Positions 4,181 to 13,861 of a DNA stretch of 64,000 bases are shown one piece after another. A model generated the notes under the pieces. That model made no database searches. It was not told the DNA's origin and was given only the letters and a program-made list of their open reading frames with translations. Source of the DNA: Blastococcus aggregatus (GTDB lineage Bacteria; Actinomycetota; Actinomycetes; Mycobacteriales; Geodermatophilaceae); assembly GCF_900221005.1 (NCBI RefSeq), contig NZ_OBQI01000001.1:248001-312000 (forward strand), given 5' to 3'. Numbering within the stretch: the stretch's first letter is position 1; every line of letters begins with the position of its first letter. A program made the position numbers and the translations under genes.

Positions 4181-5644
4181 ATGACCGCCGCCGTCCTCGA
4201 CCGCTCGCCCGCGCCCACGCGTCGGCCGTGGTCCGCCGGGACGTGGGCGGCAGGGGCGCTGGGTCGCCTGCTCCCGACGCTCGCCGTCCTCGCCGCACCC
4301 GCGCTGCTCGCCGTCGGCGCGCTGCCGGTCACCGGCACTCCTGCCGTGTTCCTCCTCCTCCTCGCGCCGGCCGGCGCCCTGGTCGCCGGCGCGCAGCGCC
4401 TCGGCCGGCAGGCCGTCACCATCGACCGGCTGCAGCGCGAGCAGGCCACGCTGCTCGAGCAGGTGCGCAGCCGCGCGGACGAGCTGGACCAGGCCTCCCG
4501 CATCCTGGCTGCGCGCGCCCAGACCATGACCAGCGTCATCGACGCGGTCACCGAGCAGTCGATCATCGGGACCGACCCCGACGGCACGATCCGGGTCTGG
4601 AACCCGGGCGCGGAGAAGCTGCTGGGTCTCCCCCGCGCGGACGTCGTCCGCCGACGCTCGATCGTGGAGTTCCACCTCCCCGAGGAGCTCGAGGAGGCCG
4701 CCGGCTCACACGGCACGACCGTGGGGCTGGAGGCCCTCGTCCGGGACGCGCAGCAGAACGGCAGCGACGTCCGCGACTGGACCTACGTCGGCGCGGGCGG
4801 CCGGCAGCGCACCGTCTCGGTCGCGGTCACCCCGCGCACCGACGACCGGGGCGTGCACGCGGGCTGGAACTTCGTGGGCACCGACATGACGGAGATCCGC
4901 GCCACCGAGCGGATGAAGGACCAGTTCGTCAGCCTCATCTCGCACGAGCTGCGGACCCCGCTCACCTCGATCCTCGGCTACCTCGAGCTCGTGCTCGACG
5001 ACGACGACCGGACGCTGACCGACGAGCAGCGGCAGTACCTCACGACCGTGGAGCGCAACGCCGACCGGCTGCTGCGCCTGGTCGGCGACCTGCTGTTCAC
5101 CGCCCGCGTCGAGGCCGGCCAGTTCACCCTGCAGCCGGAGCAGGTCGACCTCGTGACGATCGTCGGGGCCGCGGAGGAGACCGCACGCGTCGCCGCCACC
5201 ACTGCCGGTGTGCAGCTGCGCGTGGCGGCTCCCGGCGGCCGGCTCGTCGTCGCCGGGGACCCGGTCCGGCTCGGTCAGGCCTGCGACAACCTCGTCTCCA
5301 ACGCCGTGAAGTTCACCCCCCGCGGCGGGGAGGTCACCCTCACCGTCACGTCCGGCTGGCGGTCGGCCGACGGCGCCGTGACCGCCGAGGAACGTCCCGG
5401 CGCGACGCCGGTCGCCCAGCTGTCGGTGCGCGACACCGGCATCGGCATCCCGAACGACGAGCAGGGCAAGCTGTTCACCCGGTTCTTCCGCGCCTCGACC
5501 GCCCAGCGCAACGCCGTCCCCGGTGTGGGTCTGGGGCTGTCGATCACCAAGGCCATCACCACCGCCCACGGCGGCACGCTGGACCTCGTGAGCGCCGAGG
5601 GCGAGGGCACCACCTTCACGCTCACGCTCCCTCGCGACGCCTGA
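4181..5644 (+). CDS. PAS-domain sensor histidine kinase
   Basis: 487 aa from the ATG at 4181; the open frame runs further upstream but that part is not protein-like. In order: two hydrophobic segments (about 25-75) making a short membrane hairpin, a coiled-coil linker, a PAS domain (about 115-230), HisKA with SHELRTPLTSILGYLEL (phosphorylated His about 255), and an HATPase_c domain with DNLVSNAVKFTP, DTGIGIP and GVGLGLSITKAI. All catalytic boxes are intact. No response regulator is directly adjacent; the nearest candidates are the receiver proteins at 7.5-10.4 kb, so pairing is inference. It sits just upstream of the SipW-type secretion genes. Confidence 0.9.
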   Translation: MTAAVLDRSPAPTRRPWSAGTWAAGALGRLLPTLAVLAAPALLAVGALPVTGTPAVFLLLLAPAGALVAGAQRLGRQAVTIDRLQREQATLLEQVRSRADELDQASRILAARAQTMTSVIDAVTEQSIIGTDPDGTIRVWNPGAEKLLGLPRADVVRRRSIVEFHLPEELEEAAGSHGTTVGLEALVRDAQQNGSDVRDWTYVGAGGRQRTVSVAVTPRTDDRGVHAGWNFVGTDMTEIRATERMKDQFVSLISHELRTPLTSILGYLELVLDDDDRTLTDEQRQYLTTVERNADRLLRLVGDLLFTARVEAGQFTLQPEQVDLVTIVGAAEETARVAATTAGVQLRVAAPGGRLVVAGDPVRLGQACDNLVSNAVKFTPRGGEVTLTVTSGWRSADGAVTAEERPGATPVAQLSVRDTGIGIPNDEQGKLFTRFFRASTAQRNAVPGVGLGLSITKAITTAHGGTLDLVSAEGEGTTFTLTLPRDA

Positions 5645-5812: not shown

Positions 5813-6400
5813 ATGAGCGCCAAGGTCACCAGCTCCACCGCCCGCAAGGTCATCGGCTCGCTCGGCGTCATCGGTGCCGCGGCCGCCGTCGCCGGCATGG
5901 GCACCTTCGGTTCCTTCACCGACAGCAGCACCCCGGTCGCCACGACCATCACCTCGGGCACCCTGTCGATCGACGCCACCAACCCGCACGCCGCCTTCCC
6001 GCTGACGACCGACGCCTTCGTGCCCGGCGACTCCGTCACCCGGGCCATCGCGCTCAAGAACGACGGCACCGAGAACCTGGGCAGCCTGACGTTCACCTCG
6101 AAGGCCACCGTGTCGAGCATCCTGGACACCCGCGCCGACGGCCTCAAGCTCACCGTCTCCTCGTGCACGGCTCCCTGGAGCGCCACCCACACCTGCACCG
6201 GCACCGCGACGCAGCTCTACAGCGGGGCCGTCGCGACCCAGCTGAACCTGGCCGGCTCCGCCGCGATGACCGCCGGCCAGACCGCAAACCTGCTGGTCAA
6301 GGTCGAGCTGCCCACCGCCGCGAACAACGACTTCCAGAACAAGTCGACCACGCTGAGCATGCAGTTCGACGCCACGCAGCGCACCGGCACCGCGCGCTGA
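5813..6400 (+). CDS. SipW-dependent-type signal peptide protein (TasA-like)
   Basis: 195 aa from the ATG at 5813, which follows CAGGGAGAA. The N terminus (TARKVIGSLGVIGAAAAVAG then GTFGSFTDSS) has the layout of SipW-type signal peptides, with an export segment followed by an aromatic-rich F-x-D motif. The mature part is Thr/Ser-rich and predicted beta, with two cysteines and repeated 'x-G-x-L' strands, like the TasA/CalY fold. TasA proteins are exported fibre-forming or surface proteins. A dedicated signal peptidase follows 28 bases downstream. The TasA relation is inferred from the signal peptide, size and context. Confidence 0.8.
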   Translation: MSAKVTSSTARKVIGSLGVIGAAAAVAGMGTFGSFTDSSTPVATTITSGTLSIDATNPHAAFPLTTDAFVPGDSVTRAIALKNDGTENLGSLTFTSKATVSSILDTRADGLKLTVSSCTAPWSATHTCTGTATQLYSGAVATQLNLAGSAAMTAGQTANLLVKVELPTAANNDFQNKSTTLSMQFDATQRTGTAR

Positions 6401-6428
6401 CCCGGCTGATCGAACCGGAGACCACACC

Positions 6429-7061
6429 ATGACCGCCGTCCTCCCCGTCCGTCGCCCGGGGGCAGCTCAGACGCTGCCCCCGGCCGAGGACAGCCGCTCC
6501 GCACGGAACCGGTCCGCCGGTCCGGCCCGCACGCTGGGCCTGCTCGCCCCGTGGCTGGTCCGCGGAGTCGTCGGGCTGGCCGTCGCGGTCTTCGCTCTGC
6601 TCGCCGTGGGACCGCACGTCCTCGGCTACCGCACCATGACGATGCTCACCGGCAGCATGGCCCCGATGATCGAGCCCGGCGACGTCACCGTCGTCACGCC
6701 GGTCGCCGTCGAGGACGTCACCGAGGGCATGGTCATCACCTACCACCAGCCGATCGGCGACCGCTCGCTCGTGACCCACCGGGTCGTCGAGGTGCAGCGG
6801 GACGCGGCCGGCGCCGTCACCGTCCGCACCAAGGGTGACGCCAACGAGGCCATCGACCCGTGGACCGCGACGCTCGAGGGCGACACCGCCTACCGGGTGC
6901 GCGCCGTCGTCCCGGAGCTCGGCCACCTGATCCAGGCGCTCCGCGCCCCCGTGCTCACCCAGGTGCTGCTCTACGGCGCCCCGGCCCTGCTGGCCGGCTG
7001 GCTGCTGCTGGGCATCTGGCGCCCCACCACCGACACCCGCGACGAGGAGGACCAGGCATGA
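6429..7061 (+). CDS. sipW: SipW-like (ER-type) signal peptidase I
   Basis: 210 aa. An N-terminal membrane segment (about 38-60) precedes the catalytic motif LTGSMAPMIEPGD with nucleophile Ser76. The general base is His117 (VTHRVVEV) instead of Lys, the hallmark of SipW/ER-type signal peptidases. GDANEAIDPW forms box D, and a second membrane segment sits near 180-197. This enzyme removes SipW-type signal peptides on the outer face of the membrane. Its substrates are most likely the products immediately before and after it. The stop overlaps the next ATG (ATGA). Confidence 0.88.
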   Translation: MTAVLPVRRPGAAQTLPPAEDSRSARNRSAGPARTLGLLAPWLVRGVVGLAVAVFALLAVGPHVLGYRTMTMLTGSMAPMIEPGDVTVVTPVAVEDVTEGMVITYHQPIGDRSLVTHRVVEVQRDAAGAVTVRTKGDANEAIDPWTATLEGDTAYRVRAVVPELGHLIQALRAPVLTQVLLYGAPALLAGWLLLGIWRPTTDTRDEEDQA

Positions 7062-7543
7062 ACGCCATCCGCCGTACCGCTGTCCTGCTCGGCCTGGTCG
7101 CCGCCGTCGTCGTCGGCACCGTCATCCCCGCCTCGGCCGCGTTCTCCGCGAACACCCCGGCTGTCGCCGCGAAGGTCATCACCGGGTCCGTCACCGCGCC
7201 GGCTTCGGTGAACGTCGCGAAGTCCTGCACCCAGACGCAGACCGGTGGCGGCTACTACAACTCCTACGGCCAGTGGGTCGCCCCGACCTACAGCTACTGG
7301 TACCAGGCCACGGTCACCTGGCCGGCCGGCTCCGCGACGAGCGGCGTCACCGGATACCGGGTGATGGCCCACCTGAACAACGGCCAGTCGGTGGTCATGG
7401 CGGAGACGAACGCCGCGACGAGGACGGTCAGCCAGACGGTCGACCGCGGCTACCTCAACTACCAGCCCCGCCTGTCGGTCATCACGCTCACCCGGACCGG
7501 CTGGACGGCCGAGACCGCTCGGACGGCGGTGCTGTCGTGCTGA
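7058..7543 (+). CDS. Small secreted protein, probable second SipW substrate
   Basis: 161 aa. The ATG at 7058 overlaps the signal-peptidase stop. An N-terminal hydrophobic stretch (AVLLGLVAAVVVGTVIPASA) is followed by AAFSANTP, again resembling a SipW-type leader. The mature region is Thr/Tyr/Ser-rich with Cys residues near the start and at the very C terminus (AVLSC), possibly a disulfide, and beta-strand character. No known domain is recognised. Position inside the sipW unit suggests a surface or matrix component cut by the same peptidase. Confidence 0.72.
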   Translation: MNAIRRTAVLLGLVAAVVVGTVIPASAAFSANTPAVAAKVITGSVTAPASVNVAKSCTQTQTGGGYYNSYGQWVAPTYSYWYQATVTWPAGSATSGVTGYRVMAHLNNGQSVVMAETNAATRTVSQTVDRGYLNYQPRLSVITLTRTGWTAETARTAVLSC

Positions 7544-8211
7544 CCGCCCTCGTCGTCGACGCCGACGCGCTCGCCCGCCGCCGGGTCACCGGCCTCCTCC
7601 GCCTCGGCGGGTGGCAGGTCCGCGAGGCCGCGGACGTGCCCACCGCCCTCGAGCTCGCCGCGACCGCGGACGTCGACCTGGTCGTCACCGACGCCGAGGT
7701 GGCCGGCGAGGACGGGCTGGAGCTGCTCCGCCGGCTGCGCCGCGACGGCTCGCAGGCCCACTTCCTGGTCGCCGCCTGGCAGCCCTCGGAGCGGGTCCGG
7801 GCCGAGGCCGCCGCCGTCGGCGCCCTGGCCTGCCTGGGCAAGCCGGTCGACGCCGGCATCCTCCTCGACTTCCTGCGCAGCCGGACCACGGGGCCGGCTG
7901 CGCGGGGCACCCAGTACGCCATCCACGAGGTCGGCGACCTGCACGACGCCGACCTCGAGGACGACCTGATGGACCGACTCCAGGAGATGTACGTGACCGC
8001 GCTGCCGGGCCGCCTGTCGGCCATCGAGACCCACACCCGCCAGGGCGACAGCCCGGCCGTCGCCTCCGCCGCCTACACCCTGGCCGGCACCAGCGGCCAG
8101 CTCGGCCACCCGGAGGTGGCCACGATCTGCCAGGCGATCGCCGCCGACGCCCGTCGCGGCATCCTGGCCCACGACCGCGTGCAGCACCTGCACGCACTGA
8201 TCGGCGCCTGA
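7537..8211 (+). CDS. Receiver domain plus degenerate HPt domain protein
   Basis: 224 aa from a GTG at 7537 that overlaps the previous stop by seven bases. The receiver (about 1-115) has D8, phosphoacceptor D52 (VVTDAEVAGEDG) and K102 (LGKP), but A79/A80 replace the usual Thr/Ser switch. Residues about 135-222 resemble an HPt four-helix bundle, including YTLAGTSGQLG. The family consensus there is HxLKGxxxxLG, so Tyr180 stands where the phosphorylated His belongs. It therefore probably binds or titrates phosphorylated partners instead of relaying phosphate (inference). It is cotranscribed with the SipW genes, and a strong hairpin follows. Confidence 0.78.
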   Translation: MLTALVVDADALARRRVTGLLRLGGWQVREAADVPTALELAATADVDLVVTDAEVAGEDGLELLRRLRRDGSQAHFLVAAWQPSERVRAEAAAVGALACLGKPVDAGILLDFLRSRTTGPAARGTQYAIHEVGDLHDADLEDDLMDRLQEMYVTALPGRLSAIETHTRQGDSPAVASAAYTLAGTSGQLGHPEVATICQAIAADARRGILAHDRVQHLHALIGA

Positions 8212-8354: not shown

Positions 8355-9062
8355 TCAGGCGGCGACCAGGCGGTAGCCGACGCCACGCACGGTGCGGATC
8401 TCCGGCGAGCTGAGCCCGGCGGCCACCAGCTTGCGGCGCAGGTTGGACATGTGCGCCTCGACCAGCCGGAGGTTGCCCTCCCAGTCGGTCTGCCAGACCT
8501 CGCGCAGCAGCGTCTCGCGCTGCAGCACCCGGCCCGGCCGGGAGGCCAGCGCGGCCAGCAGGTCGAACTCGGTGCGGGTCAGGTCGACGACGGCCCCGTC
8601 GACCCGCACCTCCCGGGTCTCCTCGTCGACCTCGAGCTCGGCGAGCCGGCGGACCGACTCCTCGGCCGCGGCCGGCGCCTGCGGGGCCGGCGCGGTGCGC
8701 GGGAAGCGCAGCATCGCCTGGACCCGCGCCGTGAGCTCGCGCGGGGAGAACGGCTTGGCCATGTACCCGTCGGCGCCGACGGCCAGCCCGATGAGCAGGT
8801 CGACCTCCTCGGAGCGGGCGGTGAGCATGAGGACGTAGCAGGCCGTCTCGGCGCGGATCTGCCGGCAGAGCTCGGTCCCGTCGGTGTCGGGCAGGCCCAG
8901 GTCGAGCACGATGAGGTCCGGCGCCTGCCGGCGCACCTCCGCCATGCACTCCACTCCCGTGCCGACGGCCCGGACATCCATCCCGGCGCGCTCGAGGACC
9001 GTGCGGACCAGCTCGCGGATCTCCTCGGTGTCCTCCACGACGAGCACGGATGATGCAGCCAC
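8355..9062 (-). CDS. OmpR/PhoB-family response regulator
   Basis: 235 aa. Receiver domain (about 1-115) with acidic pair ED at 10-11, phosphoacceptor in LIVLDLGLPDTDG, Thr in MLTARSE and Lys in MAKPFSP. A winged-helix DNA-binding domain (about 140-232) contains LTRTEFDLLAALASRPGRVL and VRGVGYRLV. All expected residues are present. It is transcribed divergently from the receiver-PIG-L operon and lies between that operon and the SipW genes, making it a candidate local regulator. Its kinase partner is not shown by the sequence; the PAS kinase at 4181 is one candidate. Confidence 0.92.
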   Translation of the reverse strand: MAASSVLVVEDTEEIRELVRTVLERAGMDVRAVGTGVECMAEVRRQAPDLIVLDLGLPDTDGTELCRQIRAETACYVLMLTARSEEVDLLIGLAVGADGYMAKPFSPRELTARVQAMLRFPRTAPAPQAPAAAEESVRRLAELEVDEETREVRVDGAVVDLTRTEFDLLAALASRPGRVLQRETLLREVWQTDWEGNLRLVEAHMSNLRRKLVAAGLSSPEIRTVRGVGYRLVAA

Positions 9063-9253
9063 GAGCGTCGTCCCTCCGATGCGTGCGTACGGCCGCGGAC
9101 CGGTCGGTCCACGTCACCTGAGGGAGTGATCGGCGGGGGCGGCAGGCAGCTTGAGCCGAGCGCCCGGGGCGGGTGGGGGCCTGCTCACCCCTCCGGGTGA
9201 CGCCGAGGCACCCCCGGCTCAGCTACACCGCCGGTCCGGCCGTTGCGGGGTGC

Positions 9254-9270
9254 AGGACACGACGTGTCCT
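9254..9270. promoter_or_regulatory. Palindromic candidate operator upstream of receiver-PIG-L operon
   Basis: AGGACACG-A-CGTGTCCT is a perfect 8+8 bp palindrome, 36 bases before the ATG at 9307 and within the 244-bp divergent gap shared with the OmpR regulator. It could be an operator or an RNA hairpin. Confidence 0.35.
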
Positions 9271-9306
9271 CCTCCCCCGGGAGGCGCTGACGCTGAGGAG
9301 CTGGCC

Positions 9307-10389
9307 ATGGACGGCGACGTCCGCGTGCTGGTGGTCGACGACGACCCCGACATCGCACACTTCGTGCGCACCGTGCTGCAGAAGGCCGGCATGACCGCGG
9401 TCGCCTGCTTCGACCCGCTCGAGGCCCTGGCGCTGGCTGCCCGGGAGCGGTTCGACGCCGTGATCACCGACATCGAGATGCCGGGCATGAACGGGCTGGA
9501 GTTCGTCGGGAAGCTGCGCGAGCTGCAGCCCGACCTGCCCGTCGTCGTCATGACCGCGCACGCCTCGGTGGAGTACGCGGTGGAGGCGCTGCGCCGCAAC
9601 GCCGACGAGTTCATGGTCAAGCCGGTCCGCCGGGACGACGTCGTCACGACGACGCTGCGCGTGGTCGAGCTCGGCCGCTCCCGCCGGGCCACCGCGCGCC
9701 ACCAGACGGTGCTGGCGATCGGCGCCCACCCGGACGACGTGGAACTTGGCATCGGCGGCACGCTGGCCGCCCACCGGTCCGCCGGCGACCAGGTCGTCAT
9801 CCTCACCCTGTCCCGCGGTGCCCGTGGTGGCGAGGCCGGTGACCGCATGGGCGAGTCGATGGCCGCCGCGGAGCTGATCGGCGCCCGGCTGTTCATGGAG
9901 GACCTCGAGGACACCCGCATCAGCCAGGCCGACCCCACCGTCTCGATCATCGAGCGCGTCGTCGGCCAGGTGCAGCCCTCGATCGTCTACACCCACTCCG
10001 CGCACGACCGGCACCAGGACCACCGTGCCGTCCACTCCGCGGCGACCGTCGCGACCCGCAACGTCCCGACCTTCGCCTGCTACCAGAGCCCCTCGGCCAC
10101 GATCGACTACCGGCCCACCCGGTTCGTGAGCATCGACGGCTTCACCGACACCAAGCGGGCGCTGCTGGCCTGCTTCGGATCGCAGTCCGGCATCCGCACC
10201 TACATGCAGGACGACTTCGTCCTCGCCACCAGCCGCTACTGGTCCCGCTACGGCGGCGGCCAGCACTGCGAGCCGCTCGAGGTGATCCGCGAGGCCAGCA
10301 CCGTCGTGGGCGCGCAGAGCGAGTCGCCGGCCCTCGCGTCCTCCTTCTCCTTCCCGACCTCGACCCTCACGGAGCCCACCGGTGTCTGA
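9307..10389 (+). CDS. Response-regulator receiver fused to PIG-L/LmbE deacetylase
   Basis: 360 aa from the ATG at 9307, preceded by GAGGAGCTGGCC. Residues 1-125 form an intact receiver: D11-D13, phosphoacceptor D55 (VITDIEMPGMNG), Thr in VVMTAHAS and Lys in FMVKPVRR. Residues about 135-340 form a PIG-L deacetylase with AHPDD (H141, D143, D144) and HDRHQDH (233-239), which supply the zinc ligands and catalytic Asp. PIG-L enzymes deacetylate N-acetylglucosamine units in glycolipids, mycothiol precursors or glycopeptides. The fusion suggests deacetylation gated by phosphorylation (inference). It heads an operon whose later genes overlap it by a few bases. Confidence 0.88.
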   Translation: MDGDVRVLVVDDDPDIAHFVRTVLQKAGMTAVACFDPLEALALAARERFDAVITDIEMPGMNGLEFVGKLRELQPDLPVVVMTAHASVEYAVEALRRNADEFMVKPVRRDDVVTTTLRVVELGRSRRATARHQTVLAIGAHPDDVELGIGGTLAAHRSAGDQVVILTLSRGARGGEAGDRMGESMAAAELIGARLFMEDLEDTRISQADPTVSIIERVVGQVQPSIVYTHSAHDRHQDHRAVHSAATVATRNVPTFACYQSPSATIDYRPTRFVSIDGFTDTKRALLACFGSQSGIRTYMQDDFVLATSRYWSRYGGGQHCEPLEVIREASTVVGAQSESPALASSFSFPTSTLTEPTGV

Positions 10390-11383
10390 TCCCACTCCCG
10401 TCCGCGTGCTCGTCACGGGCGCCGGAGGGCCGGCGGGCGTCGCCGTCCTCCGCTCCCTGGCCCGCCGTCCCGACGTCACGCTGCTGGCCGCCGACATGGA
10501 CCGCTACGCCAGCGGGCTCTACCTGGTCGACGCGGACTCGCGCTTCCTGGTCGAGCCGGGCCTGGCCGAGACCTTCGTCGACTCCCTGGTCGCGCTCTGC
10601 GAGCGGGAGCGGGTCGACGTCCTCTTCTCCACCGTCGACGTCGAGCTGCCCCGCATCGCCGCCGAGCGCAAGCGCCTGGACGCCATCGGCACCGCGCTGG
10701 CCGCCCCGAGCCTGGAGACCCTCGAGGTCTGCCTGGACAAGTTCGCGCTGGCCCGCCGCTGCGCCGACGTGCTGCCCACGCCGCGCACCGAGCTGCTCGG
10801 CACCACCGACCCGGAGTCCTGGGACTACCCGGTGATCGTCAAGCCGCGGCGCGGCGCCGGCTCGCGCGGCGTGCACCAGGTCGACGACGCCGAGGCGCTG
10901 CGTGCCCTGGGCGCCGACGAGGACATCCTCGTGCAGGCGCTGCTGCCCGGCGACGAGTTCAGCGTGGACACCCTGGCCGACGCCGACGGGCACGTCGTCG
11001 CGGCGGTCCCCCGCTCGCGGCTGCGGGTCGACTCCGGCGTCTCGGTGGCCGGCTGCACCGTCGCGGACCGCGAGCTGGAGCAGACCGCCCGCCGGGTCGC
11101 CGAGGCCATCGGCCTGGTCGGCGTCGCCAACGTGCAGCTGCGTCGCGACGCCGAGGGGCGGGCCGCGCTGCTCGAGGTCAACCCGCGCTTCCCGGGCGCC
11201 ATGCCGCTCACCGTCGCGGCCGGGGTGGACATGCCCTCGCTCGCCCTGGACCTCGCCCTGGGCCGACAGCTCCCCGACTCGGTGCCGTTCGCCGAGGTGG
11301 CCGTCGTCCGGTTCCTCGAGGACGTCTTCCTCGACCCGGCCGACGTCCTCGCCGCGGCGACCGGGAACGGGGACGAGCGATGA
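10382..11383 (+). CDS. ATP-grasp ligase (CarB/PylC-like)
   Basis: 333 aa, GTG start overlapping the previous stop by eight bases. An N-terminal pre-ATP-grasp Rossmann-like part (VRVLVTGAGGPAGVAVL, then VDVLFSTVDVELP) precedes an ATP-grasp fold with PVIVKPRRGAGSRGVH, ILVQALLPGDEFSVD and the Mg/ATP motif LLEVNPRFPGAMPLT. Such enzymes activate a carboxylate with ATP and join it to an amine, thiol or other nucleophile. In this operon the deacetylase could expose the amine that the ligase acylates (inference). The substrate is unknown. Confidence 0.85.
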   Translation: MSDPTPVRVLVTGAGGPAGVAVLRSLARRPDVTLLAADMDRYASGLYLVDADSRFLVEPGLAETFVDSLVALCERERVDVLFSTVDVELPRIAAERKRLDAIGTALAAPSLETLEVCLDKFALARRCADVLPTPRTELLGTTDPESWDYPVIVKPRRGAGSRGVHQVDDAEALRALGADEDILVQALLPGDEFSVDTLADADGHVVAAVPRSRLRVDSGVSVAGCTVADRELEQTARRVAEAIGLVGVANVQLRRDAEGRAALLEVNPRFPGAMPLTVAAGVDMPSLALDLALGRQLPDSVPFAEVAVVRFLEDVFLDPADVLAAATGNGDER

Positions 11384-12114
11384 CCGCCGACCTGGTCCGC
11401 ACCGACCACCACGTGCACTCCACCTGGTCCGACGACGCGGTCAGCACCACCTGGGCGAACCTGGCCGCCGCCCGCGACGCCGGCCTGGCCAGCGTCCGCA
11501 TGGTCGACCACGTCCGCACCTCCACCACCTACGTGCCGGAGTTCCTGGCCGAGGTCGCGGCGCTGCCGCGGGTCGAGGGCCTGGAGGTGCTCACCGGCGT
11601 CGAGGCGAAGATCCTCGACGCGTCGGGCCGCCTCGACGTCCCCGCCGACCTCGTCGTCGGCGCCGGAGGCGTGGACCGCGTGCTCATCGCCGACCACCAG
11701 TTCCCCGGGCCCGACGGCCCGTGGAGCCCGCGCCGGACCATGGAGGAGATCGAGCGGGGCCTGCACCCGCAGGACGCCCTCGACATCCTCGTGACGGCGA
11801 CGGTCCGCGCGATGACGCTGGCCGGCCGGGCCCAGCTGGCCCACCTGTTCTCGCTGCTGCCCAAGATCGGCCTGCACGAGAGCGCGCTCTCCGACGCCCA
11901 CCTGCACGAGATCGCCACGGCCGCCGTCCGCACCGGGACGACGGTCGAGGTCAACGAGAAGTGGCGCTGCCCCGGCCCGCGCGTGGTGCTCGCCTTCGCC
12001 GCCGCCGGCGTGACGCTGGTCGGCTCCACCGACAGCCACGAGGCGTCGTCCGTCGGCCGCTACTCCTGGGTCGGCGAGGCCGCTGCGGTCCGCCGCCTGG
12101 TGGGTGTCCGATGA
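11380..12114 (+). CDS. PHP-domain metal-dependent hydrolase
   Basis: 244 aa, start overlapping the previous stop (ATGA). PHP motifs are visible: TDHHVHSTWSDDA at the N terminus, MVDHVRTST near 45, LIADHQF near 105, HLFSLL near 150 and GSTDSHEASSVGRY near 220. These supply the His/Asp metal cluster. PHP proteins are phosphoesterases (histidinol-phosphatase type) or nucleases; a small phosphoester substrate fits the operon better. The specific reaction is not recognisable. Confidence 0.83.
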   Translation: MTADLVRTDHHVHSTWSDDAVSTTWANLAAARDAGLASVRMVDHVRTSTTYVPEFLAEVAALPRVEGLEVLTGVEAKILDASGRLDVPADLVVGAGGVDRVLIADHQFPGPDGPWSPRRTMEEIERGLHPQDALDILVTATVRAMTLAGRAQLAHLFSLLPKIGLHESALSDAHLHEIATAAVRTGTTVEVNEKWRCPGPRVVLAFAAAGVTLVGSTDSHEASSVGRYSWVGEAAAVRRLVGVR

Positions 12115-13595
12115 CCGACGTCCTGACCGCCGCCCCCGACGTGGCCGAGATCGGCCGCGGGGTGCTCGTCGCCGTGCTGCTGGCGTTCGTGGCCTTCGGC
12201 GCGATCCCCGTGGTCGCCGGGCTGGCGCAGTTCCTGCTCATCCCGATGCACGCCGTCCGCAACCACTACCGCGAGACCGGGCCGTACCTGCCCAACGTCG
12301 CGGTGCTCGTGCCGGCCTGGAACGAGGCGGCCGTGCTGACCGCATCGGTCGACCGGCTGATGGGGCTGGACTACCCGCCGGAGCGGCTGCGCGTGTTCGT
12401 CGTCGACGACGCCAGCACCGACGAGACCCCCGCGGTCATGGCCCGGCTCGGCGAGCGCTTCCCCGGCCGCGTCGTGCACCTGCGCCGCGAGAAGGGCGGC
12501 GAGGGCAAGGCGCACACGCTCAACCACGGGCTGCGCGAGGTCCTCGCCGACGACTGGATGGAGGCGCTGCTGATCATGGACGCCGACGTCATCTACGCGG
12601 CGGACTCGCTGCGCAAGATGACCCGGCACCTGGCCGACCCGACCGTCGGCGCCGTCACCGCCTACATCCGCGAGGGCAGCGAGGACGCCCACGGGCTGAC
12701 CCGCTTCATCGGCTTCGACTACCTGGCCGCGCAGGCCGCCTCCCGTCGGGCGCAGAACGTCGCCGGCGCCATGGCCTGCCTGGCCGGCGGCGCCCAGCTG
12801 CACAGCCGCGAGAACCTCGAGGCCATCGGCGGGCAGATCGACACCTCCTCGCTGGCCGAGGACACGGTCACCACCTTCCGCACCCAGCTCGCCGGGCGCC
12901 GGGTCGTCTTCGAGCCGCACGCCCGCGTGCTGGCCGAGGAGCCGGCCGGCATCGACGCGCTGTGGAAGCAGCGGCTGCGGTGGGCGCGCGGCAACGTGCA
13001 GATCACCTCGATGTACCGCCACCTGTGGTTCCGGAAGTCGGTGCACCCCGGCCTCGGCGGCTTCTTCTTCGGCGTCTTCTGGTTCGCCATCCTGCTGCTG
13101 CCGGTGGCGATGCTGCTGACCTCGATCGGCCTCGTGGGGCTCTACCTGCTGGACAGCGACCTGGCCGCCACGGTGTTCGGCGCCGCGGTCTTCGTCCCCG
13201 TCGCGACCTTCGTCTTCATGATCACCATGACGATCTCGGTCGACCCCCGGGTCGGGCTCAAGGTGTGGAGGGAGGCGCTGCTGTTCCCCGGCGTCATCTC
13301 CTTCGCCGTCCTCACCGGCGCCACGTTCCCCATGCTGGTCCCGTGGGGCGGCGGCGACAGCAGCGGCTGGACGCTGTTCGTCTACAGCTGGCTGGTGCTC
13401 TGCGTGCCGGCGGCCTTCCTGCTGCGCAAGCTCGAGCTCACCCGCTGGGGCCGCCGGCTCGCGCCGCTGGGGCTCTACCTGATCGGGTTCGGCCCGATCA
13501 TGTGCGCGATCACCGTGGACGCCTACGTCAAGGAGTACCGCGGGGCCGCGATGACCTGGGACAAGACCGAGAAGACCGGGAGGGTCTCCGTATGA
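12111..13595 (+). CDS. Processive family-2 glycosyltransferase, membrane-bound
   Basis: 494 aa, start overlapping the PHP stop. One N-terminal membrane segment (about 17-45), then a GT-A domain with VPAWNEAAVL, FVVDDASTD, the DxD motif MDADV, the acceptor/base motif SLAEDTVTTF and QRLRWARG, the Q-x-x-R-W signature of processive beta-glycosyltransferases. At least four membrane helices follow (about 325-480). This matches the PgaC/hyaluronan-synthase/cellulose-synthase type, which polymerises and exports a polysaccharide. With a deacetylase in the same operon, a poly-hexosamine-like product is plausible but unproven. Confidence 0.87.
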   Translation: MTDVLTAAPDVAEIGRGVLVAVLLAFVAFGAIPVVAGLAQFLLIPMHAVRNHYRETGPYLPNVAVLVPAWNEAAVLTASVDRLMGLDYPPERLRVFVVDDASTDETPAVMARLGERFPGRVVHLRREKGGEGKAHTLNHGLREVLADDWMEALLIMDADVIYAADSLRKMTRHLADPTVGAVTAYIREGSEDAHGLTRFIGFDYLAAQAASRRAQNVAGAMACLAGGAQLHSRENLEAIGGQIDTSSLAEDTVTTFRTQLAGRRVVFEPHARVLAEEPAGIDALWKQRLRWARGNVQITSMYRHLWFRKSVHPGLGGFFFGVFWFAILLLPVAMLLTSIGLVGLYLLDSDLAATVFGAAVFVPVATFVFMITMTISVDPRVGLKVWREALLFPGVISFAVLTGATFPMLVPWGGGDSSGWTLFVYSWLVLCVPAAFLLRKLELTRWGRRLAPLGLYLIGFGPIMCAITVDAYVKEYRGAAMTWDKTEKTGRVSV

Positions 13596-13861
13596 GCAGG
13601 GGCCGCACCACGTCCGACCGCGCCACCGCGGAGATCGTCACGAGCCTGGCGGCGCGCCCGTACCGCGTCTCGCCCCCGGTCGTGCTGACCGCGGCGGACC
13701 TCGCCGCCCGCGGTGGGGTCCTCCCGGTCTGGGCCGACCCGATGGCGCTGGCCGACGAGACCGAGGCCGACCGGCTGCGCGAGCGCCGGCTCTTCGCGGG
13801 CCTCGCCGTCGCGATCGCCGTCGTCGTCCTGCTCTGGACGGTGCGCTCGCTCCTGATGTGA
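13592..13861 (+). CDS. Small single-pass membrane protein, function unknown
   Basis: 89 aa, ATG overlapping the glycosyltransferase stop. A soluble N-terminal 65 residues (with VSPPVVLTAADLAARGG) lead to one C-terminal membrane helix (about 67-86, LFAGLAVAIAVVVLLWTV). No known domain. Its place resembles that of small accessory subunits next to PgaC-type synthases (such as PgaD), but no sequence relation is visible. Confidence 0.7.
   Translation: MSRGRTTSDRATAEIVTSLAARPYRVSPPVVLTAADLAARGGVLPVWADPMALADETEADRLRERRLFAGLAVAIAVVVLLWTVRSLLM

Follow-up and report, generated by a model that had tools for sequence, protein, structure and literature searches.

A 64,000-nucleotide stretch of the genome of the soil actinobacterium Blastococcus aggregatus (contig NZ_OBQI01000001.1, positions 248,001 to 312,000; hereafter the window) carries five plus-strand genes, at 9307-13861, that encode in order a receiver domain fused to a PIG-L/LmbE deacetylase, an ATP-grasp ligase, a PHP metallohydrolase, a processive-type family 2 glycosyltransferase (GT2) and a short one-helix protein, with the catalytic motifs intact. 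It is near certain that this five-gene set is a real conserved unit, and the reading that we favour, with a probability of about one half, is that of a two-component-gated cytosolic deacetylase within an operon that would make and export a modified glycan. No paper on a receiver-PIG-L protein or on the gene set was found in the open-access literature searched, in agreement with an earlier note, a model's reading of the bare DNA letters, to which no described pathway with the set was known; the set appears to be undescribed so far. On a wider reading, put forward more tentatively below, the synthase-dependent glycan made by the operon would belong to a class that is new in actinobacteria. It would be unusual for polysaccharide chemistry to be steered by phosphorylating a biosynthetic enzyme directly, as two-component control, so far as it is known, is mostly transcriptional. 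Synthases under direct control are best known in connection with cyclic di-GMP (PMC8461298; papers cited by PMC number were available in part, and what is said of them holds for those parts). The locus also offers a small testable set with natural variants, including receiver-less, PHP-less, fusion-only and decayed copies.

Recurrence of the gene set among actinobacteria

The host genome measures 4.62 Mb; open reading frames were re-read from the DNA with a home-made gene caller, and the main gene orders were checked by tblastn. The claimed overlap at every junction of the five genes was borne out on re-reading (8, 4, 4 and 4 bp). A start proposed at 9254 is out of frame with the fusion gene, the likely start of which is the ATG at 9307, because GAGGAG (9295-9300) precedes it and close homologues begin there too; an in-frame GTG lies upstream at 9250.

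A GTDB contig scan based on the fusion alignment returned 55 loci, the best of them 96% identical, of which the first 38 were analysed and the remaining 17 (L063-L079) dropped, as they match the receiver only or little more. The fusion, ATP-grasp, PHP and GT2 genes lie in the same order and on the same strand in 27 of the 38, comprising 13 loci from Blastococcus and 14 from Nakamurella, Sanguibacter, Agromyces, Salinibacterium, Pseudoclavibacter, Leifsonia, Microbacterium, Cellulomonas and Agrococcus. The same four-gene order was found in seven of 14 further regions fetched outside Blastococcus (L096, L103, L104, L105, L106, L114 and L115), and the genomes of L106, L114 and L115 belong to the window's phylum but to a different class. 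The search for conserved fusion neighbourhoods that the earlier note had proposed as a check came out in favour of a recurring set, the outcome that it had named as a refutation, a lack of conservation of the fusion with the other genes, did not arise, and chance adjacency of the genes was rejected since the same order recurs in many genomes. Among the remaining GTDB loci, L037 breaks off with its contig after two receivers, the fusion copy of L061 is broken and L062 encodes a receiver-SpoIIE protein. Of the other regions fetched outside Blastococcus, L095 shows the four-gene order with a plain PIG-L in place of the fusion, and L097 and L098 come from one genome whose genes are divided between these two contigs.

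In a sample of 345 genomes of the class, in which the best 8 and 5 candidates per genome were scored, PHP was found in six (E up to 1e-15), the fusion in nine (E up to 1e-50) and both in five, the window's own genome counted. This co-occurrence has a Fisher p of 1.9e-8, or 6e-7 without the window's genome, values that serve as a guide only because the sampled genomes are related; in one of the five genomes with both (G367) the two genes lie on separate contigs. Across the phylum PHP was present in two of 296 genomes, the window's own and G524, and in three of 120 genomes around G524. Pairwise distances co-vary among the fusion and the enzymes (r 0.72-0.88 over 21 loci, with 0.85-0.88 for the fusion against each enzyme), as do distances to the histidine kinase described below (r 0.81-0.91 over 18 loci), and none of 999 permutations reached values as high. 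For these correlations two of the 13 Blastococcus loci were kept, L042 was left out as the gene caller had missed two of its genes, and the plain PIG-L of L095 took the place of the fusion. Such co-variation is as expected of a unit inherited together, and shared species history alone could give the same result.

Proteins of the operon

Both domains of the fusion lie in one chain and exceed their Pfam cut-offs (receiver 103.7 bits against 30.2; PIG-L PF02585 83.4 bits against 28.2), and the window copy has the residues D12, D13, D55, T83 and K105 of the receiver and H141-P-D-D144, H230, D234 and H236-Q-D-H239 of the deacetylase, so that the description of an intact receiver joined to an intact PIG-L holds. 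The fusion alignment contains 51 sequences including that of the window, 49 of them with a receiver (L060 and L102, both among the 49, are from the same genome). Within the receiver, D55, T83 and K105 are kept in 49 of 49 receiver-bearing rows and the acidic pair is complete, its second residue being D or E; of the PIG-L residues, H141, P142, D143, D144, H230, D238 and H239 are present in 48 of 49, and only L061, a broken copy, departs from them. The alignment has two rows that lack a receiver: L095, whose plain PIG-L is intact, and the second copy of L052, which is degenerate. The spacing between K105 and H141 is 31-37 residues in 48 of 48 rows, which suggests, with help from a weak structure model, that the last receiver helix passes nearly straight into the first PIG-L strand. 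Among the nearest solved relatives of the PIG-L domain by sequence are TT1542, BshB1, MshB and diacetylchitobiose deacetylase. The fusion shares with these N-deacetylases the family and the AHPDD and HQDH motifs, but it differs from them in carrying a receiver, and it scores 83 bits with the BshB1 model, the cut-off of which is 182.5.

Some loci carry unusual forms of the fusion. In Salinibacterium, L042 carries the fusion as a tandem pair (8849-9838 and 10001-10945, with 50% and 64% identity to the query), and the enzyme genes directly follow the second only; in L096 (10013-11476) two receivers precede the PIG-L domain in one protein. The second copy in Agrococcus (L052:16771-17766), situated after the kinase gene, is degenerate in both domains, has no HPDD and scores below the Pfam cut-offs, and it is possibly a dead regulatory paralogue.

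The ATP-grasp protein matches PF15632 with 107.8 bits (cut-off 29.1), and its nearest solved structures by sequence are, after 2pn1, carbamoyl-phosphate synthase, VanA-type ligases and amino-acid ligases. Its residues K120, K154, E265, N267 and R269, which presumably have ATP and metal roles, are invariant in 23 of 23 aligned sequences. The PHP protein, called a PHP hydrolase in the earlier note, falls short of the Pfam cut-off (22.3 against 26.4 bits), whereas its predicted structure does match PHP enzymes: the model has a mean predicted local distance difference test (pLDDT) score of 94.9 and lies nearest to the histidinol phosphatase 2yxo (Z 21.2, root-mean-square deviation 3.5, 226 aligned residues), PolX and YcdX, with Z of 19.8-21.2. 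The metal ligands H13, D18, H44, E75, H106, H155, D218 and H220 are invariant in 21 of 21 aligned sequences. By fold and ligands the protein is phosphatase-like, of the HisK/YcdX/PolX class, the comparison with Foldseek and VIA being one that yields a class and not a substrate and in which the absence of a family carries no weight.

The GT2 protein matches PF13641 with 106.3 bits (cut-off 27), and its DD (99-100), DAD (157-159), ED (250-251) and QRxRW (287-291) motifs are invariant in 21 of 21 aligned sequences. The QxxRW motif is linked with processivity in GT2 synthases, and the protein has the processive-synthase motif set (D, DxD, ED, Q(R/Q)xRW) together with membrane segments. Its best NCBIfam match is PgaC/IcaA (TIGR03937), at 126.1 bits against an equivalog cut-off of 422.3; it scores 76.4 bits with NodC (TIGR04242, cut-off 550) and 90 bits with MftF. 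The nearest solved structures by sequence are the family 2 glycosyltransferase 6yv7, which we take to be archaeal, followed by cellulose, chondroitin and hyaluronan synthases among others. In a plasmid search with the GT2 the best match had 28% identity over 88%.

Hydropathy predicts no membrane segment in the fusion, the ATP-grasp or the PHP protein, about six in the GT2 and one in the small protein, as had been described. When the most hydrophobic short frame was picked, a one-helix protein was found after the GT2 in 27 of 27 full GTDB loci and in L095, L096, L098 and L103-L106, and none in L060, L100, L101 and L102. A loose pattern, E-I-x-x-[DN]-R-R-x-E-R, precedes the helix and is met in part by the window copy (E-T-E-A-D-R-L-R-E-R), which has no family match in Pfam or NCBIfam. 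The synthase had been termed PgaC-like; the data fit a GT2 of processive type with the one-helix protein as its putative partner, but as a family label PgaC is loose.

Table 1. Operon genes and neighbouring signalling genes in the window
Feature	Position	Strand	Remarks
Receiver-PIG-L/LmbE fusion	9307..10389	+	360 aa; receiver residues 7-114, PIG-L residues 136-249 (Pfam)
ATP-grasp ligase	10382..11383	+	GTG start; PF15632/PF02655; nearest solved structure by sequence 2pn1
PHP metallohydrolase, histidinol-phosphatase/YcdX/PolX-like	11380..12114	+	Class from predicted structure and metal ligands
Processive-type GT2 synthase	12111..13595	+	PF13641; about six membrane segments (hydropathy)
Small protein	13592..13861	+	89 aa; one C-terminal membrane segment (hydropathy); conserved place after GT2
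PAS histidine kinase	4181..5644	+	Homologue of the kinase at the fusion's locus in other genera; about 3.7 kb upstream
Receiver-Hpt protein	7537..8211	+	Close to the operon in Blastococcus; candidate phosphorelay protein of uncertain membership
Response regulator	8355..9062	-	Transcribed away from the operon; membership uncertain

The histidine kinase and natural variants

Outside Blastococcus the small-protein gene is usually followed by one or two stand-alone receivers and a PAS histidine kinase, members of the usual locus that the five-gene scope of the earlier note had missed. A histidine kinase gene lies in the same gene run as the fusion, or directly divergent from it (L098, L114 and L115), in 29 of 31 non-Blastococcus loci with an unbroken fusion and enough flanking sequence; this count leaves out L037, which ends at a contig end, and the broken L061, and counts L102 and L060, being of one genome, once. 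The stand-alone receivers keep the Asp and Lys residues in 35 of 35 cases. Control of the fusion by the kinase is thus likely on the evidence of gene neighbourhood and conserved residues. Of the phosphorylation gating that had been suggested, control by phosphorylation is probable, given the kinase in 29 of the 31 informative loci, while the gating itself is a step that we infer. In Blastococcus the kinase gene is parted from the fusion by genes for a camelysin-like, a signal-peptidase-like and a receiver-Hpt protein, and the window kinase is probably a partner of the fusion, though not an exclusive one.

The most informative natural variant is L095, where a plain PIG-L forms a unit with the ATP-grasp, PHP and GT2 genes and with a one-helix protein of 44 residues; the 16 kb read there showed no kinase, and no receiver-PIG-L fusion was found elsewhere in that genome at E 1e-50. 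The retention of a receiver-less PIG-L with these enzymes suggests that deacetylation is a step of the pathway and that the receiver is an optional, added switch, and so it seems to us. In the family of G195, PHP was present in one of four genomes, G195 itself, so the receiver-less form has been seen once only.

Within Blastococcus the operon is decaying in places. In G008 (L107), where the locus lies in place on one contig, the fusion is cut after residue 102, the ATP-grasp gene is split over two frames, the PHP is about 30 residues short and the GT2 is in pieces, so that all four enzyme genes are damaged. G006 is without the GT2, G014 has the fusion only, and G011 (L108) keeps PHP only, in a form without D18; in G004, G007 and G020 neither the fusion nor PHP nor GT2 was matched at the limits applied, and the kinase copy of G020 has an in-frame stop. 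Patchy presence is common for surface polysaccharides.

A related PHP and ATP-grasp pair occurs on a Sinorhizobium megaplasmid (L116:6944-8673; 80 and 152 bits with the respective profiles), where the two genes overlap by 4 bp, follow annotated cysD-nodQ-cysQ and sit between sulfation genes and polysaccharide genes. Their order is reversed relative to the window operon, and the 14.6 kb read contains no match to the fusion or to the GT2 profile. Plasmid records with a PHP match number 35, all of them from Sinorhizobium, with 23-26% identity among the ten listed. The presence of such a pair without the fusion points to a sub-module that accompanies polysaccharides elsewhere. Another Sinorhizobium region (L117:6914-8643) resembles it, with unannotated frames of similar size and order that also overlap by 4 bp.

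A possible pathway, its rivals and its setting

According to the reading that we favour, the PAS histidine kinase would phosphorylate the receiver of the fusion, either directly or via the stand-alone receivers, and the phosphorylated receiver, attached to PIG-L with almost no linker, would alter the activity of the deacetylase. The cytosolic PIG-L would take the acetyl group off an N-acetyl-amino sugar precursor, which may be a nucleotide sugar or a cytosolic chain end; the ATP-grasp enzyme would join a small carboxylate, possibly phosphorylated, to the bared amine as an amide; the PHP phosphatase would then trim the phosphate; and the membrane GT2, with its one-helix partner, would polymerise and export the modified sugar. 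Processive synthases export while polymerising, and with the receiver and PIG-L in the cytosol this would place deacetylation on a precursor or a cytosolic chain end; the deacetylation of an exported polymer is therefore less likely, the fusion having no membrane segment by hydropathy. The substrates, the order of steps, the direction of control and the export are as we infer them, and a modified-glycan product is plausible. The surface location and the amino-acylation that the earlier note had supposed for the glycan may apply to such a product. We put forward more tentatively the wider proposal that a two-component system switches precursor de-N-acetylation post-translationally, yielding an N-acylated amino-sugar polymer only on signal, and that the PHP and ATP-grasp genes form a portable pair for decoration, shared with polysaccharide loci of proteobacteria.

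The scheme of baring an amine, acylating it, dephosphorylating and polymerising is modelled on the HS:2 capsule of Campylobacter jejuni, with the polarity of the amide reversed. For that capsule the available text describes an ATP-grasp domain that couples a phosphorylated amine to a uronic acid as an amide, a phosphatase that strips the phosphate, and a GT2 that takes the amidated sugar only, the parts being Cj1438 (GT2 and TupA-like ATP-grasp) and Cj1435 (a HAD phosphatase) (PMC11800379). The two systems would be alike in that an ATP-grasp amide ligase, a phosphatase and a GT2 act on one sugar, but the Campylobacter ATP-grasp is of another type, its phosphatase is HAD and not PHP, and no deacetylase or receiver is described in the part of that paper available. 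Receivers fused to metabolic enzymes are also a known kind, which includes the receiver-GT2 protein MTH_548 of Methanobacteriaceae (PMC5847659), and the window fusion resembles these response regulators with enzymatic output in having a receiver on a metabolic or glycan enzyme and in its distribution over a narrow range of lineages. Its output is PIG-L, however, and the text of that paper mentions neither PIG-L nor LmbE.

A number of observations weigh against our proposal. PIG-L proteins act on many small-molecule substrates; H236 of the deacetylase is variable, being N in four rows, V in L099 and R in L061; and the structure model of the fusion has a mean pLDDT of 66 and a poor C-terminus, so that coupling between receiver and PIG-L is not visible in it, and the model was dropped as evidence for coupling. 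The Campylobacter analogy runs in the opposite amide polarity, with an amine donor joined to a sugar carboxylate, and draws on other enzyme families. One GTDB locus (L035) retains only a 44-residue GT2 remnant, G018 (L109) keeps PHP only, and L100-L102 have ATP-grasp and GT2 relatives without PHP, which was found neither at the locus nor elsewhere in the four genomes of L099-L102. As for the kinase, the two loci with none in the stretch read are L104, where some 250 bases upstream are all that the contig offers, and L105, whose genome has a kinase relative elsewhere. All 22 Blastococcus relatives have the kinase, and as six of these 22 lack an intact fusion it must do other work there, which weakens the case for the partnership in this genus; the idea that it is the fusion's exclusive partner there was rejected on this ground. 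Ten loci have a fusion and a kinase without the full enzyme set, namely seven GTDB loci that are without the three downstream enzyme genes (L036, L050, L054, L055, L057, L058 and L060, the last with remote ATP-grasp and GT2 relatives on the opposite strand) and L099, L100 and L101, and the fusion can thus serve other purposes.

These ten loci, and the kinase kept throughout Blastococcus, would suit a fusion that works on its own as a signalling enzyme, its product acting elsewhere, with the ATP-grasp, PHP and GT2 genes merely riding along. We regard this as very unlikely in view of the tight gene overlaps, the co-occurrence of PHP with the fusion across genomes and the PIG-L of L095, which stays with the enzymes though it lacks a receiver and has no neighbouring kinase; the co-varying distances of fusion and enzymes (r 0.85-0.88) argue in the same direction, but shared descent could also give them. 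L095, with the same gene set and no receiver, is on the other hand what would be anticipated if the receiver were dead or structural and did not gate the enzyme, a view that is hard to credit when phospho-acceptor residues are kept in all 49 receiver-bearing rows and a kinase accompanies 29 of 31 loci. It is also conceivable, though unlikely, that the operon makes not a long polymer but a short exported or membrane glycoconjugate, that is, an oligosaccharide or glycolipid whose end is de-N-acetylated and N-acylated in the manner of Nod factors. For this the GT2 would make a short chain, the terminal residue of which would be deacetylated in the cytosol by PIG-L and then acylated by the ATP-grasp enzyme. 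A cytosolic deacetylase suits such terminal-residue chemistry, BshB1, MshB and diacetylchitobiose deacetylase act on small glycosides, and the GT2 also matches the NodC (76 bits) and MftF (90 bits) models; yet NodC falls so far under its cut-off of 550 that membership was rejected, the best match is PgaC/IcaA, and the C-terminal membrane block and small helper resemble those of polymer synthases.

That best match (126 bits) raises the question whether the genes form a divergent operon, of the ordinary pga/ica kind, for poly-N-acetylglucosamine or polysaccharide intercellular adhesin. The pgaABCD and icaADBC operons combine a membrane GT2, a membrane partner of small size and the removal of N-acetyl groups, to which the window GT2, its putative one-helix partner and the PIG-L domain would correspond, and small partners are known for the synthases PgaC and IcaA (PMC7112194; PMC8461298), PgaD and IcaD serving them as the protein after the window GT2 might serve its neighbour (PMC7112194). 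However, PgaB is periplasmic (PMC5933820), whereas the window has a PIG-L-receiver fusion without a membrane segment; ATP-grasp and PHP are added; the PgaC/IcaA cut-off is missed by 296 bits; and none of the five proteins has a Pfam match to a NodB-type deacetylase. The available text of a large survey of operons of this kind, in which PHP was not looked for, contains no mention of ATP-grasp or PIG-L (0 each; PMC7112194). Membership was rejected on the GT2 score and the type of deacetylase, and this explanation is highly improbable.

Some neighbouring genes deserve mention. At L100:4333-5505, L101:4531-5778 and L102:4672-5835, beside the ATP-grasp and GT2 relatives and where PHP is missing, lies a protein of 387-415 residues with a hydrophobic N-terminal stretch (cluster 260), the L100 copy of which, when scanned, had no Pfam match up to E 0.1. 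The receiver of L062 (6108-9862), 51% identical to that of the fusion, is joined to a SpoIIE-type phosphatase instead, and genes for STAS and HATPase proteins and a cellulose-synthase-like GT2 lie just upstream, a different switch at a GT2 locus. The minus-strand response regulator of the window, presumably of OmpR type as read by eye, has relatives in L099 and L106 that stand next to the kinase and the fusion. In Blastococcus the genes that separate the kinase from the operon (5813-8211 in the window) encode a camelysin (M73)-like protein, a candidate SipW-like signal peptidase, which we take as such from a reading by eye without Pfam support, and the receiver-Hpt protein, and the camelysin-like protein hints at a protein matrix component beside a glycan locus.

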